A DNA stretch of 64,000 nt from Arthrobacter sp. zg-Y919. Its GTDB lineage: Bacteria; Actinomycetota; Actinomycetes; Actinomycetales; Micrococcaceae. The stretch is from contig NZ_CP126242.1 of NCBI RefSeq assembly GCF_030142045.1, forward strand, positions 930,001 to 994,000, in the 5' to 3' direction. Below the pieces are notes generated by a model. That model was not told the origin of the DNA and did not search any database. It saw only the letters and a program-made list of their open reading frames with translations. This document shows positions 3,899 through 14,203 of this stretch, piece by piece. A program made the translations under genes and the position numbers. Numbering within the stretch: position 1 is the first letter of the stretch; each line of letters opens with the position of its first letter.

Positions 3899-5416
3899 AT
3901 GTCCGTCCACATCCAGGATGAAACCCTGTCCTTCGAAGAGGCCATGGAGAAGTACGACCCGGTACTGGGGTTCGAGGTCCACGTGGAGCTGAACACCAAA
4001 ACCAAGATGTTCTCCGACGCCCCGAACATCTTCGGCGACGAGCCCAACACGGCCGTCACCCCGGTGGACCTGGGCATGCCCGGCGTCCTACCGGTCGTGA
4101 ACAAGAAGGCCGTGGAGTACTCGATCCTCATTGGGCTCGCGTTGAACTGCAAGATCGCTGAATCCTGCACCTTCGCCCGGAAGCAGTACTTCTACCCGGA
4201 CACACCTAAGAACTTCCAGACGTCCCAGTACGAAGACCCCATCGCGTACGACGGCTACCTGGACATTGAGCTTGAAGACGGCACCATGTTCCGCGTCGAG
4301 ATCGAACGCGCGCACATGGAAGAAGACGCCGGCAAGCTCACGCACATGGGCGGCGCCGCCGGACGTATCCAGGGTGCCGACTTCTCCCTGGTCGACTACA
4401 ACCGCGCCGGCGTGCCGCTGGTGGAAATTGTCACCAAGCCGATCGAGGGCGCCGGATCGCGTGCTCCCGAGCTGGCCAAGGCCTACGTGGCGGCCATCCG
4501 GGAAATCGTGAAGAACCTGGGTGTCTCCGATGCCAAGATGGAGCGCGGCAACGTCCGCTGCGACGCCAACGTTTCCCTGCGCCCGTACGGCCAGGAAAAG
4601 TTCGGCACGCGTTCGGAAACGAAGAACGTGAACTCGCTGCGCGCCGTCGAACGCGCCGTCCGCTTCGAGATCCAGCGCCACGCCGCCGTCCTGGACTCCG
4701 GCAACGAAATTGTGCAGGAAACCCGGCACTGGCACGAGGACACCCGTTCCACCACCTCGGGACGGCCGAAGTCCGACGCCGATGACTACCGGTACTTCCC
4801 GGAACCGGACCTGCTGCCCGTGGTCACCACCACGGAATGGATCGAAGAGCTGCGCTCCCGCCTGCCCGAGCCGCCGGCCGAGCGCCGCAAGCGGCTGAAG
4901 GAAGACTGGGGCTACTCCGACGCCGAGTTCCGCGACGTCGTCAACGCCGGAGTTATGGAAGCCATCGAGGAAACCATTGCCGCCGGCGCCTCCGCTCAGG
5001 TTGCCCGCAAGTGGTGGATGGGCGAAGTTGCCCGCCGCGCCAAGGAAGCCGAAGTGGACCCGGTGGACGTCGGCGTCACGCCCGAGCTGATCGTCGAACT
5101 GGACCGCCTGGTCCAGACCGGCAAGATCAACGACAAGCTGGCCCGCCAGGTCCTGGACGGCGTCCTCGCCGGCGAAGGCACCCCGGAGGAAGTCATCGAG
5201 AAGCGCGGCCTCGCCGTGGTGTCCGACGACGGCCCCCTGCTTGAGGCAATCGACGCAGCACTGGCGGCACAGCCGGATGTTGCGGACAAGATCCGCGGCG
5301 GCAAGGTCCAGGCCGTCGGCGCCATCGTCGGTGGTGTAATGAAGGCCACCCGCGGACAGGCCGACGCCGGCCGCGTGCGCGAGCTGATCCTGGAACGCCT
5401 CGGCGTACAGGGCTAA
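3899..5416 (+). CDS. gatB: Asp-tRNA(Asn)/Glu-tRNA(Gln) amidotransferase subunit B
   Basis: tRNA-binding and kinase-like subunit of GatCAB that activates the misacylated aminoacyl-tRNA. The 505-residue product opens with GFEVHVELNTKTKMFS, shows the conserved block GNVRCDANVSLRP and the DADDYRYFPEPDL signature around residue 300, and ends in a YqeY-like helical tail for tRNA contact (about residues 355-505). It is the last gene of the operon and is followed by a strong hairpin. Confidence 0.97.
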   Translation: MSVHIQDETLSFEEAMEKYDPVLGFEVHVELNTKTKMFSDAPNIFGDEPNTAVTPVDLGMPGVLPVVNKKAVEYSILIGLALNCKIAESCTFARKQYFYPDTPKNFQTSQYEDPIAYDGYLDIELEDGTMFRVEIERAHMEEDAGKLTHMGGAAGRIQGADFSLVDYNRAGVPLVEIVTKPIEGAGSRAPELAKAYVAAIREIVKNLGVSDAKMERGNVRCDANVSLRPYGQEKFGTRSETKNVNSLRAVERAVRFEIQRHAAVLDSGNEIVQETRHWHEDTRSTTSGRPKSDADDYRYFPEPDLLPVVTTTEWIEELRSRLPEPPAERRKRLKEDWGYSDAEFRDVVNAGVMEAIEETIAAGASAQVARKWWMGEVARRAKEAEVDPVDVGVTPELIVELDRLVQTGKINDKLARQVLDGVLAGEGTPEEVIEKRGLAVVSDDGPLLEAIDAALAAQPDVADKIRGGKVQAVGAIVGGVMKATRGQADAGRVRELILERLGVQG

Positions 5417-5437
5417 CGTACCGACAGATTGACGGGG

Positions 5438-5472
5438 GACCCCGGCAGGCATCGTGCCTGCCGGGGTCCTGC
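5438..5472 (+). terminator. Terminator of gatCAB
   Basis: A perfect 14-bp stem, GACCCCGGCAGGCA (5438-5451) with its complement at 5455-5468, and a TCG loop. A short T-rich stretch follows. Confidence 0.8.
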
Positions 5473-5514
5473 TGTTTCATGGCCGGGGGCACACTTCGCA
5501 GGTACGCTTTCGAA

Positions 5515-6414
5515 ATGGCCAACCTTCCCGCCGCCGAAATCTCCGCTGATCCCGCGCTGGTGCGGCAACTGGTGCTGGAACAGCATCCGGAGCTGGGCGG
5601 GCAGGCACTGCGGCAGGTGGCCAGTGGGTGGGACAACTACATATACCGCCTCGGAACCGAGTACGCGGTCCGGCTGCCGCGCCGCCGCTCTGCTGCCGGA
5701 CTGACCGCGAACGAACAGCGCTGGCTGCCGCAGCTGACCGCTGGTGTCCCCGTCCAGACCTCCGCCCCGCTGTATTGCGGAACCCCGTGCGAGCTCTACC
5801 CGTGGCCGTGGAACATCACCGCCTGGTTCGATGGCCAGGATGTTTCCCTGTCACCCCGCGACCGCAATGTTTCCCTGGCCGAGCCGCTGGCCGCTTTCCT
5901 CAACGCCTTCCACCGCCCGGCGCCACCGGATTTTCCCCGCAACGCGGTCAGGGGCGGGCCGTTGTCCGGGAGGGACGAAGCAGTGCAGGGCAGGTTGAAC
6001 AGCGGGATGGTGCCGCACGCCGCCCGGGTACAGGAACTCTGGGACGAGGCACAGAACATCCCGGCATGGACCGGCCCCCCGCTGTGGCTGCACGGAGACC
6101 TCCACCCGGCGAACCTTGTGGCCAAGGACAACACCCTGCAGGCCGTCATCGACTTCGGTGATCTCACTGCGGGCGACCCGGCCACCGACCTTGCCGCCGC
6201 GTGGCTGGTGTTCGACGCCGAAGGCCGGCAGAAGTTCCGCAGTGCCCTGGGCAGCCAGTACGACGGCGACCCTCACGTGTGGGAGCGGGCCCGCGGCTGG
6301 GCGGTCTGCATGGCTACGAACCTCCTGGCGAACTCCGATGACGCGCCCGGGCTGTACCTCGTGGGCTCGGAAACCCTGATGGAAATCCTCACCGGTGACC
6401 GGGAGAGGTTCTGA
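5515..6414 (+). CDS. Aminoglycoside phosphotransferase (APH) family kinase
   Basis: A 299-residue protein-kinase-like small-molecule phosphotransferase. The nucleotide-binding part contains WDNYIYRLGTEYAVRLPRR; the catalytic loop is LHGDLHPANLV (Asp and Asn of the Brenner motif) and the metal-binding segment is VIDFGDLTAGDPATDLA. Members phosphorylate antibiotics or ordinary metabolites, and the sequence does not tell which. The chosen ATG gives MANLPAAEIS; an in-frame ATG at 5479 would add 12 residues but sits in the gatB terminator region. The FAD oxidoreductase gene starts 20 bp downstream, suggesting co-transcription. Confidence 0.85.
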   Translation: MANLPAAEISADPALVRQLVLEQHPELGGQALRQVASGWDNYIYRLGTEYAVRLPRRRSAAGLTANEQRWLPQLTAGVPVQTSAPLYCGTPCELYPWPWNITAWFDGQDVSLSPRDRNVSLAEPLAAFLNAFHRPAPPDFPRNAVRGGPLSGRDEAVQGRLNSGMVPHAARVQELWDEAQNIPAWTGPPLWLHGDLHPANLVAKDNTLQAVIDFGDLTAGDPATDLAAAWLVFDAEGRQKFRSALGSQYDGDPHVWERARGWAVCMATNLLANSDDAPGLYLVGSETLMEILTGDRERF

Positions 6415-10504: not shown

Positions 10505-12316
10505 GTGACACTGATGACCCCGTGGGGCGAAGCATTGAACCCCGAATCCGTCCTGCCCGAATACCCCCGGCCGCAACTCGCCCGGGACAGTTACCTGAAC
10601 CTCAACGGCTACTGGCAGTACGCGTTCACTTCCGCCGGACAGGCGCAGGCACCGGACGACGGCGAGTGGGACGGCGAGATCCTGGTGCCGTTCTCACCCG
10701 AGGCCCCGCTGTCCGGAGTTCGCCGGCACCTGCAGCCGCAGCAGCTGCTCTGGTACCGGCGGACCCTGACCTTGCCGGAGGGCTTTGCAGGCGAACGGGT
10801 CCTGCTGCACTTCGGAGCCGTGGACTCCAGCTGCTGGGTCACCGTCAACGGCGTCCCGGTGGGCAGGCACGACGGCGGCTACCTGCCGTTCTCCCTCGAC
10901 ATCACCGACGCACTGGCCGCCGGTCCCGGTTCCCCCGGGGCCGAGCACGAAATCGTGGTCCGGGTGCGGGACCTGAGCAACACCGGATCCGCCAGCCGGG
11001 GCAAGCAGACGCTGGACCGCGGCGGCATTTGGTACACCGCGCAGTCCGGGATCTGGCAGACGGTCTGGCTGGAAGCCGTACCCCGGGTAAGCATCACACG
11101 TCTGGCGCTTGTGCCGGATCTGGGCTCCGTGACCGCCACGGTCCTGGTGGATGACGTCCGCCCAGCCCCGGACAGCACTGGCCTGCGGGCGGAAGTCACC
11201 GTATCCGCGCACGGGCAAACGGTGGCGGACGCCGTCGTCGTTCCCGGTGTCCCGGTGCGTCTTCCTGTGCCCGACCCGCACCTCTGGTCCCCGGAGGATC
11301 CGTTCCTCTACGACATCACTGTGCGCCTGCTCGCCGACGGGATCGAGGCCGACCGGGTCCGCAGCTACACAGGCCTGCGGACGGTGGGGATGGGGCGCGA
11401 CGGCGCCGGGCACCTGCGTTTGCTGCTGAACGGGCAGCCGTATTTCCACGTAGGTTTGCTGGATCAGGGGTACTGGCCGGACGGGCTCTACACGGCGCCG
11501 TCGGACGATGCCCTTGCCTCGGATATCCGTGCCGCGAAGGACCTGGGGTTCACGATGCTGCGCAAGCACATCAAGATCGAACCCCTGCGCTGGTACTACC
11601 ACGCGGACCGGCTGGGCATCCTGGTCTGGCAGGACCTGGTCAACGGCGGCAGCACCTACCGGCACTCCGTGGTCACTCCTCCCGCCCAGGAGGCAGCGCA
11701 CCTGCGCGATGATGACTATCCAACTTTCGGGCGGTCCGACGTGCAGGGCCGGGAACAGTTCCTGGCCGACCTGCGCGGCACGGTGGAGACGCTGGGCAAC
11801 AGTCCGTCGATCGCCGTGTGGGTGCCGTTCAACGAGGGATGGGGTCAATTCGACGCCAATGCCGTCACCGACCTGCTGCGCGGCCTGGACCCGACGCGGA
11901 CCATCGACCATGCCAGCGGCTGGCATGACCAGGGCGGGGGAGACCTCAAGAGCGTGCACGTGTATTTTGCGCCGTTCCGGCTGCGGAAGGGCTGGCTCGC
12001 CGGGGACCGCGCCGTCGTCCTGTCCGAATACGGCGGATACAGCCTGCGCATCCCCGGCCACACCTTCAACGACAAGGAGTTCGGCTACCGGCGCTTCCGG
12101 TCCCGGGGCGCCCTGGCCCGGGCCTACGAGCGGCTGCACCGGCGTCAGATCGAACCGGCCGTTGCTGGCGGACTGGCTGCAACGGTCTACACCCAGCTCA
12201 CCGACGTCGAGGACGAGGTGAACGGCCTGCTCACCTATGACCGCCGGGTGGTGAAGATTGATGCGGCGCTGGTGCGCCGGATCAATGCCCGGCTTATCCG
12301 GGCTGCGGGGCGCTGA
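10505..12316 (+). CDS. Glycoside hydrolase family 2 protein (beta-galactosidase/glucuronidase-like)
   Basis: A 603-residue enzyme with the three-domain GH2 order: N-terminal jelly-roll sugar-binding domain (about 25-190), immunoglobulin-like domain (about 195-290) and TIM barrel (about 295-600). The acid/base Glu444 lies in WVPFNEGWGQF and the likely nucleophile Glu508 in VVLSEYGGYS, as expected for retaining GH2 enzymes. There is no signal peptide, so it is cytoplasmic. Which sugar it cleaves is unknown. Start is GTG, with an in-frame ATG three codons later. The array of GGCAGCAGAA repeats begins 4 bp after its stop codon. Confidence 0.9.
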   Translation: MTLMTPWGEALNPESVLPEYPRPQLARDSYLNLNGYWQYAFTSAGQAQAPDDGEWDGEILVPFSPEAPLSGVRRHLQPQQLLWYRRTLTLPEGFAGERVLLHFGAVDSSCWVTVNGVPVGRHDGGYLPFSLDITDALAAGPGSPGAEHEIVVRVRDLSNTGSASRGKQTLDRGGIWYTAQSGIWQTVWLEAVPRVSITRLALVPDLGSVTATVLVDDVRPAPDSTGLRAEVTVSAHGQTVADAVVVPGVPVRLPVPDPHLWSPEDPFLYDITVRLLADGIEADRVRSYTGLRTVGMGRDGAGHLRLLLNGQPYFHVGLLDQGYWPDGLYTAPSDDALASDIRAAKDLGFTMLRKHIKIEPLRWYYHADRLGILVWQDLVNGGSTYRHSVVTPPAQEAAHLRDDDYPTFGRSDVQGREQFLADLRGTVETLGNSPSIAVWVPFNEGWGQFDANAVTDLLRGLDPTRTIDHASGWHDQGGGDLKSVHVYFAPFRLRKGWLAGDRAVVLSEYGGYSLRIPGHTFNDKEFGYRRFRSRGALARAYERLHRRQIEPAVAGGLAATVYTQLTDVEDEVNGLLTYDRRVVKIDAALVRRINARLIRAAGR

Positions 12317-12319
12317 GGG

Positions 12320-12406
12320 TTTTGCTGCCATTTTGAACATCTGCTGCCGTTCCAAAGCGGCAGCAGAACACGAAAGGGGCAGCAGAAACGGGAAGCGGCA
12401 GCAGGA
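12320..12406. repeat. 19-bp-periodic GGCAGCAGAA array, downstream copy
   Basis: Three direct units GGCAGCAGAA start at 12359, 12378 and 12397 (the last ends GA), exactly 19 bp apart, preceded by two inverted units (TGCTGCC at 12323 and TCTGCTGCC at 12340). Spacers are not conserved. The array fills the gap between the convergent GH2 and AbiEi-like genes and abuts the stop codon of the latter. A matching array lies at the other end of that gene. Confidence 0.85.
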
Positions 12407-13384
12407 TTAGCGCCGGCGAACCCTAGGGAGCCCGGCCCGCACAAGCAGTTGGACCATGCCGTCTGGATCCTGCGGACTACGGGTGATGTCTTCCCACGAC
12501 CAGCGGGCGAACCTTACGCCCATAGCCCTGATTGCGTCTTCACGCCGTTTCTCCTGAGTAAGTGTTTCCCACGACGGTCGCAGTGCCGTTACCTCGGCGG
12601 ACGCCAGAGCACCCCGGCCGTATTTGACGGCACCGTCGAACTCCCCGACGAGTCTCTGTTCGGACCAATAAAAGTCTGTCCGGCCTAAGAACTTCCCACC
12701 GGCCGAAAAGAACTCCTGCTGCAGTTCCGGCACGGGGAATCCCTGCCGGTAGAGAACTGCACGCGAGTAGGACTCACCTGGCGATTCCGACCGGCCATCG
12801 GCAAAGTCGATTACCTGGCGGGCCCGGCTGCGTTTGGCCTGGTCCGGAAGTAAGGCGGCGGTATTGAGCAGGTCACTCTTCCTGAGAGGTGCCAGCATGC
12901 GGACGGGATCGGGCCGCAGGACATGGTCCATGGCGGGAACCGCCCGCTGGAAAGGAAGATAGGCGGCCATATCGAGGACCGTCTGAATACGGGACGTAAG
13001 CTGTACTCCGTCTCGCTGCACCACAGGCGCCAGAAGCCTGCGCTCGGTCCAGCGGAGGTCACCGCGGCGCCGGCCGTGGGAGGTGCGGGAGGCCAACAGC
13101 ATGATATCCGGAGTGGCACCAATGACGGGGATACCCCAGATCACGGCCGCGGACTCCTGCACCAGAACCCTCTGCCCATGGCCTTTCTCAATGGCAGCTT
13201 TGATCCGCAACCGGTCGCGTTCCCAACGTGGAAGCTGGTCCCATGCGGCGGCGGCTACGTAGACACCTGGCCGCACCCGGACCACTTCACCGTTGCCGCA
13301 GCGGCGAGCGAGCGTGGACCTGCGGGCACCGCTGAGTGCGTCGTCGGCAGCGAAAAGGAACTCCGGATCCATGTGTTCAGGCAT
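12407..13384 (-). CDS. AbiEi-like winged-helix protein with C-terminal Vsr/DUF559-type nuclease domain
   Basis: A 325-residue protein. The N-terminal part (about 1-70; LARRCGNGEVVRVRPGVYVAAAAW) resembles the winged-helix of AbiEi-type antitoxin/regulator proteins. The C-terminal part (about 220-315) has the Vsr/DUF559 endonuclease-like pattern: FLGRTDFYWSEQRLVGEFDG followed by AVKYG, then EKRREDAIRAMGVRFARWSW, giving Asp, Glu and Lys positions of a PD-(D/E)XK fold. Such fusions are common, uncharacterised actinobacterial proteins. No AbiEii-like toxin gene is adjacent. In-frame ATG codons at 13384 and 13372 are the plausible starts; the frame is open to 13504 but that extension runs through the repeat array. 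Both flanks carry the same repeat family. Confidence 0.7.
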   Translation of the reverse strand: MPEHMDPEFLFAADDALSGARRSTLARRCGNGEVVRVRPGVYVAAAAWDQLPRWERDRLRIKAAIEKGHGQRVLVQESAAVIWGIPVIGATPDIMLLASRTSHGRRRGDLRWTERRLLAPVVQRDGVQLTSRIQTVLDMAAYLPFQRAVPAMDHVLRPDPVRMLAPLRKSDLLNTAALLPDQAKRSRARQVIDFADGRSESPGESYSRAVLYRQGFPVPELQQEFFSAGGKFLGRTDFYWSEQRLVGEFDGAVKYGRGALASAEVTALRPSWETLTQEKRREDAIRAMGVRFARWSWEDITRSPQDPDGMVQLLVRAGLPRVRRR

Positions 13385-13468
13385 ACCGGCACGCCGTGCT
13401 GGGGGCAGAGAGTGGCACCGGCGATTGTGGAAAACTGACCATTTCGCCAGGAATCGACCGGTTTCGAT

Positions 13469-13536
13469 TTCTGCTGCCGGTTTAAACCGGCAGCAGAAGA
13501 GCAAAACGGCAGCAGAACAGCAAACCGGCAGCAGAA
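13469..13536. repeat. 19-bp-periodic GGCAGCAGAA array, upstream copy
   Basis: An inverted unit TTCTGCTGCC (13469-13478) and a direct unit (13489-13498) form a perfect 30-bp palindrome centred on TTTAAA; further direct units start at 13508 and 13527, again 19 bp apart. The order (inverted unit then three direct units) is the same as at 12340-12406, while the 9-10-bp spacers differ. It sits about 85 bp upstream of the AbiEi-like start and 7 bp from the end of the VOC gene. Confidence 0.9.
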
Positions 13537-13543
13537 CCCAGAA

Positions 13544-14203
13544 CTAGATCTCGACGGGACCGTTCGCGGTGTCGAAGGTGACCGACATGATGCCCGGCGT
13601 GCCGGCAGGGGCAATCCAGGTGACGTCCACGTTCTCCAGCGGCTTCTCCACCGGATGGCCGAGCCAGTCGGTGACGCGGGCAGCGGATCCGGCGATGGTC
13701 AGCGACTTCAGCTTCACCGAGCCGGGCATGCCGGGGATCGCGTTGGAGGGGTGCAGTTCCTCGGTGTTGTCATCCCAGCGCAGCAGGTAGGGCACCTGCG
13801 GGTCGGCGATGAGACCGTTGATGCCGATCTGCCGCCAGGTGAGCTCCTGGCCGTCGGGGAATTTGCGGTTGCCCGGCACGGAGGACCGGCCCAGGCGTTC
13901 CTCGAAGGGGGAGAGATCGTCCACGGCAACACACCAGCCCATCCAGCCGCCGCCGCATTCGGAACGCTGGCGCACGGCCTGCCCGAAGGGCGCCTTGTCC
14001 GACGCCGGGTGGTTCAGTACCTCCACCACCTCGACGTACTGGTTGTTGGCCAGGGGCAGGATCATATTGCGGGTACCGAACCGGGGGTGGACGCCACCCT
14101 TCACGAAGTCGGCACCGAGAGCAGCGGCAATCCTCTCTGTGGTGGCCAGAAGACCGTCGGATTCACAGGCATAAGAAACATGGTCCAAGCGCATGCGGCC
14201 CAT
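13544..14203 (-). CDS. VOC-family (glyoxalase-like domain) protein
   Basis: A 219-residue member of the vicinal-oxygen-chelate superfamily, most like the Glyoxalase_3 type. It begins MGRMRLDHVSYACESD, with the strand-helix start and His typical of these modules, and continues FGTRNMILPLANNQYVEVVEVL, holding a Glu expected at a metal site. The C-terminal half (KLKSLTIAGSAARVTDWLG) looks like a second, weaker module. Substrate unknown. An in-frame ATG at 14194 is an alternative start. It is divergent from the methionine operon. Confidence 0.8.
   Translation of the reverse strand: MGRMRLDHVSYACESDGLLATTERIAAALGADFVKGGVHPRFGTRNMILPLANNQYVEVVEVLNHPASDKAPFGQAVRQRSECGGGWMGWCVAVDDLSPFEERLGRSSVPGNRKFPDGQELTWRQIGINGLIADPQVPYLLRWDDNTEELHPSNAIPGMPGSVKLKSLTIAGSAARVTDWLGHPVEKPLENVDVTWIAPAGTPGIMSVTFDTANGPVEI

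Follow-up and report, generated by a model that had tools for sequence, protein, structure and literature searches.

A predicted nuclease gene bracketed by phased palindromic arrays: a candidate REPtron-like unit in an actinobacterial genus and its relatives

In the window (the whole 64,000-nucleotide stretch of DNA from Arthrobacter sp. zg-Y919 that was analysed) arrays of the repeat GGCAGCAGAA, set in 19-bp phase and made up of a hairpin and direct units, lie at both exact ends of a gene of 321 aa (Table 1). Its product is probably an AbiEi-like winged helix at the N-terminus joined to a PD-(D/E)XK-like nuclease domain, and the sequence comparisons described here make it likely that this protein recognises the palindrome bracketing its own gene. 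The reading that we favour, with a probability that we put at roughly 0.45, is that gene and arrays form a REPtron-like unit whose enzyme is unrelated to the known REP transposases and in which cutting and repair would copy and convert the palindromes. Autoregulation and a homing-like behaviour of the cassette are weighed against it below; the three are not mutually exclusive.

Table 1. Positions of the features at the array-bracketed locus, numbered from the first letter of the window.
Feature	Position	Strand	Remarks
GH2 (glycoside hydrolase family 2) protein, neighbour	10505..12316	+	convergent with nuclease gene
Downstream (3′) array	12320..12406	.	inverted units 12320, 12339; direct units 12359, 12378, 12397; hairpin centre near 12353
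Predicted nuclease gene, 321 aa	12407..13372	-	ORF; start ATG 13372 by orthologue alignment A1
Alternative in-frame start (MPEH), chosen in the original prediction	13373..13384	-	ORF, alignment
TTTTCCACA box	13426..13434	-	upstream of start codon, between 5′ array and start
Upstream (5′) array	13469..13536	.	perfect 30-bp palindrome 13469-13498, then direct units 13508, 13527
Glyoxalase_3 (VOC-like) protein, neighbour	13544..14197	-	upstream, in tandem

The original prediction had set a phased array at either end of this gene, and the coordinates given there proved exact. Both stand above chance in shuffles and resamples: the window holds 21 near-matches to the unit (at most one mismatch) against a mean of 4.73 in shuffles, with none of 100 shuffles as high, and four pairs of GGCAGCAG[AG]A at the 19-bp step against none in 200 order-1 resamples. 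TRF gave a period of 19 at both arrays, and both fold better than shuffled sequence, with z values of -4.5 and -4.3 (for either array, 1 of 200 shuffles did as well). In the 5′ array the inverted unit at 13469 and the direct units at 13489, 13508 and 13527 are all exact. In the 3′ array the direct unit at 12397 (GGCAGCAGGA) has one mismatch, as does each of the inverted units at 12320 and 12339, which are 19 bp apart; with inverted units at both of these positions the downstream array holds two of them. The same plan had been proposed for both ends, and this stands for the direct units at 19-bp steps but not for the number of inverted units. The unit at 12397-12406 directly adjoins the stop codon of the gene, which lies on the minus strand and ends at 12407. 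At the other end the ORF is open as far as 13504, and the gene end first given, 13384, has been replaced by the ATG at 13372, which the alignment with orthologues prefers. No terminator-like sites were found at the two window arrays, and each of the five matches to known RNA families fell under its gathering score. No AbiEii nucleotidyltransferase toxin gene adjoins the nuclease gene, whose neighbours encode the GH2 hydrolase and the glyoxalase-like (Glyoxalase_3) protein, in agreement with the proposal of a unit with no separate toxin gene.

The two domains are recognised with different ease. The window protein matches AbiEi_4 weakly (17.6 bits, cut-off 25), and the same profile matches 20 of 23 orthologues at E <= 0.1; the PADLOC AbiEi profile matches all 23 at that threshold, the window protein with E 4e-6. 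The DUF559 profile matches 3 of the 23 orthologues at E <= 0.1 and leaves the window protein unmatched, as does NCBIfam, and a profile search for relatives of solved structure found none up to E = 5. The AbiEi part of the predicted AbiEi-like and Vsr/DUF559-like fusion is thus weakly borne out among the orthologues, the window protein itself lying below the AbiEi_4 cut-off and its DUF559 part having no profile match. The C-terminal part carries a motif of the form GES..SR - LQ - D..W - GEFDG..KY - EK.RE, and the residues invariant across 29 diverse homologues include E200, S201, R204, D233, W236, G243, E244, D246, G247, K250, Y251, E274, R277, E278 and R290. A putative nuclease domain was assigned because of this conserved motif and because of homology to paralogues that match PF18741 or PF04480. 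The conserved D...E-x-D-G pattern of the family resembles that of Vsr/DUF559, and by this likeness we read D233, E244-x-D246 and K250 as a putative PD-(D/E)XK-like site.

The paralogues form a second, diverged AbiEi/REase branch in the same genomes, with EYEGAGHS or a similar sequence in place of GEFDGAVKY. The two branches were aligned by hhalign with 99.8% probability across 289 columns; five of five paralogues match the restriction-endonuclease family PF18741 (MTES_1575), below its cut-off, and two of five match PF04480 (DUF559), once above the cut-off. Nine of the 12 paralogues L268-L279, from 12 genomes of the genus of the window, have a palindrome (score >= 14) on at least one side. As the paralogues had been meant as a negative control and were bracketed themselves (the remaining eight loci of that control set belong to the same family), control windows and 62 other genes were used. 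Among eight bracketed paralogues examined, four (in G001, G004, G006 and G011) have palindromes on both sides, and by eye these do not resemble the arrays that flank the window-type gene of the genome concerned, which suggests that one enzyme may go with one palindrome.

Orthologues of the window gene are present in 28 of the 29 genomes (species) of the genus, each beside the same glyoxalase (VOC) gene, which is found in all 29 and lies no more than about 0.85 kb from the orthologue in the 28. The GH2 end on the other side was recognised by motif at 21 of the 23 loci examined, and three of the nuclease copies look frameshifted (G009, G022 and G027). Read across the genus, the flanks mostly consist of a palindrome and direct units of about 19 bp in a sequence that is specific to the species; the predicted GGCAGCAGAA repeat is a real array, and at the same time one species' version of a palindrome family that varies between genomes. 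A strict ungapped palindrome scan (score >= 12) of the 28 loci was positive at the 3′ end in 15 and at the 5′ end in 14 (8 loci have one at both ends, 21 at one end or more and 7 at neither), with the split genes of G009 and G027, which displace the scan windows, both counted as misses; tandem arrays are visible by eye in some of the loci missed (G020, G007). Five further palindromes lie elsewhere within these loci, that of G009 about 140 bp upstream of its gene. In G028, the one genome of the 29 without the gene, GH2 and VOC are separated by other sequence that has no palindrome and is not a clean empty site. A recent insertion of gene and arrays is unsupported, with the gene in place beside VOC in 28 of 29 species and G028 different in sequence.

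Direct-repeat extensions of several hundred bp were seen on the arrays of G005, G007, G010 and G024, and in the 5′ flanks of L045 (G007), L046 (G024) and L057 (G005), upstream of the gene, they are very long, at roughly 400-800 bp. Two copies of the 3′ palindrome in G020 enclose an alpha/beta hydrolase gene (identified by Pfam; L047:556-1377). The 3′ flank of G016 (L059) likewise has a palindrome on each side of a stretch that resembles the G020 insert. It is as if the palindromes in these two 3′ flanks bracketed added genes.

Similarity between arrays was compared with that between the proteins in a set of 23 orthologues without internal stops. Array similarity was correlated with nuclease similarity given VOC (partial Mantel test, 5′ array r 0.46, 3′ array r 0.48, p 2e-4; for the 3′ test three genomes with almost no 3′ flank were left out and the G020 flank includes the inserted gene). 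The reverse test, of array against VOC given nuclease, gave r 0.29 (5′, p 2e-4) and 0.19 (3′, p 0.017), so that descent accounts for part of the array similarity. By 8-mers, the two flanks of the same genome had a similarity of 0.176 (n=19, range 0 to 0.53) compared with 0.070 for flanks of different genomes (n=418). Among the 29 genome pairs with a VOC protein identity of 97% or more, mean identity is 69.5% (54.0-95.2) for the nucleases and 90.6% for the GH2 proteins. For G012 and G013 the values are 98.6% for VOC and 58.3% for the nuclease, and G019 compared with G010 and G020 has 100% identity in VOC, 94.3% and 98.5% in GH2, and 66.1% and 65.5% in the nuclease. In a windowed alignment of G019 with G010, identity drops at the GH2 stop and climbs again at the nuclease start; the left boundary between G019 and G020 was taken from blastn because G020 carries the inserted gene. 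The arrays of G019 and G020 have a similarity of 0.14 at the 3′ end and 0.77 at the 5′ end. G019 is thus the clearest case: the nuclease gene and the 3′ array were exchanged and the 5′ array kept its old type, which speaks against a strict pairing of enzyme and array on both sides of the gene. Both array types occur in G017 and G019. Taken together, these alignments support the view that the flanking arrays change along with the nuclease allele. This, and the co-occurrence of gene and arrays in the genus and beyond, upholds the earlier idea of a nuclease- or regulator-like gene tied to the repeats that flank it.

Copies of the palindromes are also dispersed through the genomes of the genus. 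A covariance model, R1, gave 7-68 matches in each of the 28 gene-bearing genomes and two in G028, the single genome on which the gene-less comparison depends (E <= 0.1); the genome of the window has 24, both strands counted. These counts are lower bounds (150 of 4,126-6,239 candidates were scored per genome), and they cover both strands with nearly every site matched twice, so that the number of sites is about half. The model was trained on 18 flank palindromes, is biased to the genomes that supplied them and was searched in the 29 genomes of the genus. Three of the 18 are inexact in their outer arms, more palindromic than the real sequences, and the whole-genome counts rest on this version; in the corrected alignment (A5) 76.9% of cells are paired compared with 78.1% before, the covariation is as before, and the corrected model (R2) found the same sites as R1 in 20 loci of the genus and two weak matches rather than one in 23 loci outside it. 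G009, with its frameshifted nuclease, still has 66 R1 matches. Exact words of array type B occur 10-33 times each in G009, G010, G017, G019, G020 and G021, four times in G027, once each in G016 and G025 and not in the other 20 genomes, G028 included; the reversed-pattern control for type B gave none in any genome. The type-A word is present in 12 of the 29. A sample of 20 dispersed copies, picked from among the matches listed, has 14 that are intergenic, where 20% of the DNA is non-coding, and six inside ORFs; six of the intergenic copies lie between convergent, five between tandem and three between divergent genes (genes were called here, as for the 62 control genes and for 88 control genes mentioned below, with a crude GC3-based caller).

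In the 3.08-Mb genome of the window itself, the strict array (two exact units) is found at four places, both gene ends and two more, the latter both between convergent ORFs. One ORF next to another array copy (L009:5856-6929, minus strand) encodes what we take to be a TetR-type regulator fused to a NUDIX domain. With further sites elsewhere in the genome, the repeats are more like a small REP family than like sites belonging to the gene alone; a reading as private binding sites was rejected because of the two other strict arrays and the dispersed palindrome family. Arrays scattered at hundreds of unrelated loci had been named in the original prediction as the observation that would speak against it; dispersal there is, to several to a few dozen sites per genome and not to hundreds. 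No hidden RAYT turned up, Y1_Tnp (PF01797) being found in none of the 29 genomes of the genus and in five of 14 control genomes.

Outside the genus, the profile of the protein family has hits at E <= 1e-20 in 200 genomes out of 295 from the bacterial family, spread over 24 of 32 genera. The 80 named loci analysed are the best 80 of 118 relatives, related species included, with 16 in the genus of the window and 64 outside it (other Arthrobacter, Pseudarthrobacter, Rhodococcus, Naasia, Actinomyces, Cryobacterium, Nakamurella and others). Palindromes of score >= 14 within 400 bp were found upstream of 29, downstream of 32 and on both sides of 16 of the 80, and at the 64 outside loci upstream of 21, downstream of 23, on both sides of 11 and on at least one side of 33; among controls they were found in 33 of 869 windows, and on some side of 12 and both sides of none of the 62 control genes. 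An exact word of at least 13 bp common to both flanks is present at 38 of 79 loci (L188, at a contig edge, was left out) compared with four of 62 control genes (Fisher p 2e-8), one of 79 pairs of far windows and 12 of 400 pairs taken across loci. For the loci outside the genus alone the figures are 31 of 63 against 4 of 62 (p 4e-8), and together with the 21 of 28 loci in the genus they answer in the affirmative the question, raised with the original prediction, of whether arrays and protein family co-occur. The VOC neighbour is kept at 7 of 92 loci outside the genus (some genes counted twice). Dispersal was followed at two places. In G166 the gene accounts for two of the six sites of the cognate word, which is absent from 15 other genomes. 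The one palindrome word tried in genus g10 gives 0-4 matches per genome over 23 genomes, ten of which have none, near a background of about one, and it is present once in three of four genomes outside g10; every match is at the gene in G184 and G241 and none is at the gene in G289 and G295. Given the rarity of this one word in g10, dispersal is not universal.

The space between the 5′ array and the start codon holds a further conserved element, the box TTNTCCACA, which we take to be close to the DnaA-box consensus. It is present in 20 of 23 orthologues, mostly about 50-60 bp upstream of the start, and lies within 200 bp upstream at 49 of the 79 named loci, 35 of these being among the 63 outside the genus, compared with none of 869 control windows and none of 88 control genes. 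The eight paralogues have no copy in the 300 bp upstream, even in a slightly looser form.

Among known systems the closest likeness is to REP/REPIN-RAYT units, in which an enzyme gene is flanked by palindromes with dispersed, mostly extragenic copies, several enzyme types each have their own repeat and co-evolution of the two has been proposed; RAYTs are Y1 HuH transposases and their REPs bear a GTAG (or CGTC) tag at one end of the palindrome (PMC3116915, PMC3733652, PMC8266576). The present locus shares with them an enzyme gene flanked by the repeat, in the window and at one end or more of most loci of the genus, and a repeat that is dispersed and mostly extragenic in the genus, if at six sites in G166 and rarely, for one word, in g10. 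It differs in that the enzyme is an AbiEi and PD-(D/E)XK-like protein in genomes free of Y1_Tnp, and in that GTAG, CTAC, CGTC and GACG are absent from the two window arrays. The main text of PMC3733652 makes no mention of Actinobacteria. RepRanger (PMC12306157) includes an Arthrobacter in its table of REP-like sequences, and neither 'RAYT' nor 'nuclease' occurs in its main text. From DUF559/MTES_1575 (Vsr-like) proteins the window branch differs by its GEFDG..KY; in the titles and opening lines of abstracts of the open-access literature we found no palindrome association of DUF559 and nothing on AbiEi-DUF559, Vsr or Arthrobacter endonuclease-palindrome pairing. If the REPtron-like reading holds, the AbiEi-type winged helix would bind the palindrome and the nuclease domain would nick or cut it, probably as a hairpin extruded during replication; repair would then copy the palindrome to new sites and convert existing copies, and the same recombination at the arrays would swap the nuclease allele between relatives. 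This reading sits less easily with the near-background frequency of the g10 word, the many matches in G009 despite its frameshifted gene, the fact that VOC also tracks the arrays, the unswapped 5′ array of G019, the presence of both types in G017 and G019, and a contrast with G028 that comes from one genome.

It is possible, though in our view rather unlikely, that the arrays serve autoregulation, the winged helix binding the palindromes as operators and repressing its own promoter from the 5′ palindrome, with the 3′ palindrome as a second operator or a terminator and the dispersed copies as a regulon or passive by-products. AbiEi antitoxins are known to autoregulate by binding inverted repeats (PMC7319586), and the AbiEi-type winged helix (weakly matched in the window protein, by AbiEi profiles in all 23 orthologues at E <= 0.1), the inverted repeats beside the gene, the conserved TTNTCCACA box between 5′ array and start codon, and the rarity of the g10 word with its confinement to the gene in G184 and G241 would all fit such a role. 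Compared with the AbiE type IV toxin-antitoxin systems, on the other hand, the locus has no adjoining AbiEii gene, a C-terminal nuclease-like motif, and repeats at both ends and dispersed, and autoregulation leaves the 3′-end palindromes, the long direct-repeat extensions, the genus-wide dispersed matches, the conserved nuclease motif and the allele exchange unexplained. Least probable of all, we consider, is an account in which the palindromes are terminators of the usual kind, or extragenic repeats that play a passive part and happen to gather near a fast-evolving gene. Their position at gene ends, the 6 of 14 intergenic copies between convergent genes and the one-sided palindromes of 12 of the 62 control genes are what such a view would expect, but there is no terminator-like site at the two window arrays, two-sided palindromes occur at 16 of 80 loci and at none of the 62 control genes, and neither the covariation with the nuclease nor the palindrome types particular to the paralogues would follow from it.

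Free-standing homing endonucleases with a Vsr-like fold combine a nuclease gene with allele replacement at a fixed locus. A nuclease-like gene, allele replacement and a fixed locus are found here too, and gene and palindromes might therefore move as a homing-like cassette, the nuclease cutting an allele with a different palindrome and repair replacing the resident cassette. The nuclease divergence beside near-identical VOC genes in G019 compared with G010 and G020 and in G012 compared with G013, the hydrolase gene between 3′ palindromes in G020 and the similar bracketing in G016 are consistent with this. We nevertheless think it improbable as a full account, in that the repeats bracket an intact gene on both sides, a clean empty site did not turn up in the genus, where the locus is fixed and old, with 7 of 92 loci outside it still having the VOC neighbour, and a fast-diverging gene with ordinary recombination could look the same. 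The REPtron-like reading can be widened to a new palindrome-spreading class, widespread in Actinobacteria, in which AbiEi-winged-helix/PD-(D/E)XK nucleases with their own palindromes copy these intergenically, drive their own allele replacement and are possibly timed to replication by the DnaA-box-like element; we offer this wider version tentatively and hold it to be more doubtful than the unit itself.

REPs are the classic dispersed repeats of bacteria, and in PMC3116915, PMC3733652 and PMC8266576 the enzymes dedicated to them are Y1 transposases. If the reading proposed here is true, a second, unrelated class of enzyme would have cognate palindromes, and such partnerships would have arisen more than once. 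A large and so far uncharacterised family of nuclease-like proteins in Actinobacteria would also gain a function, and would provide many natural enzyme-site pairs in which to study the evolution of DNA recognition.
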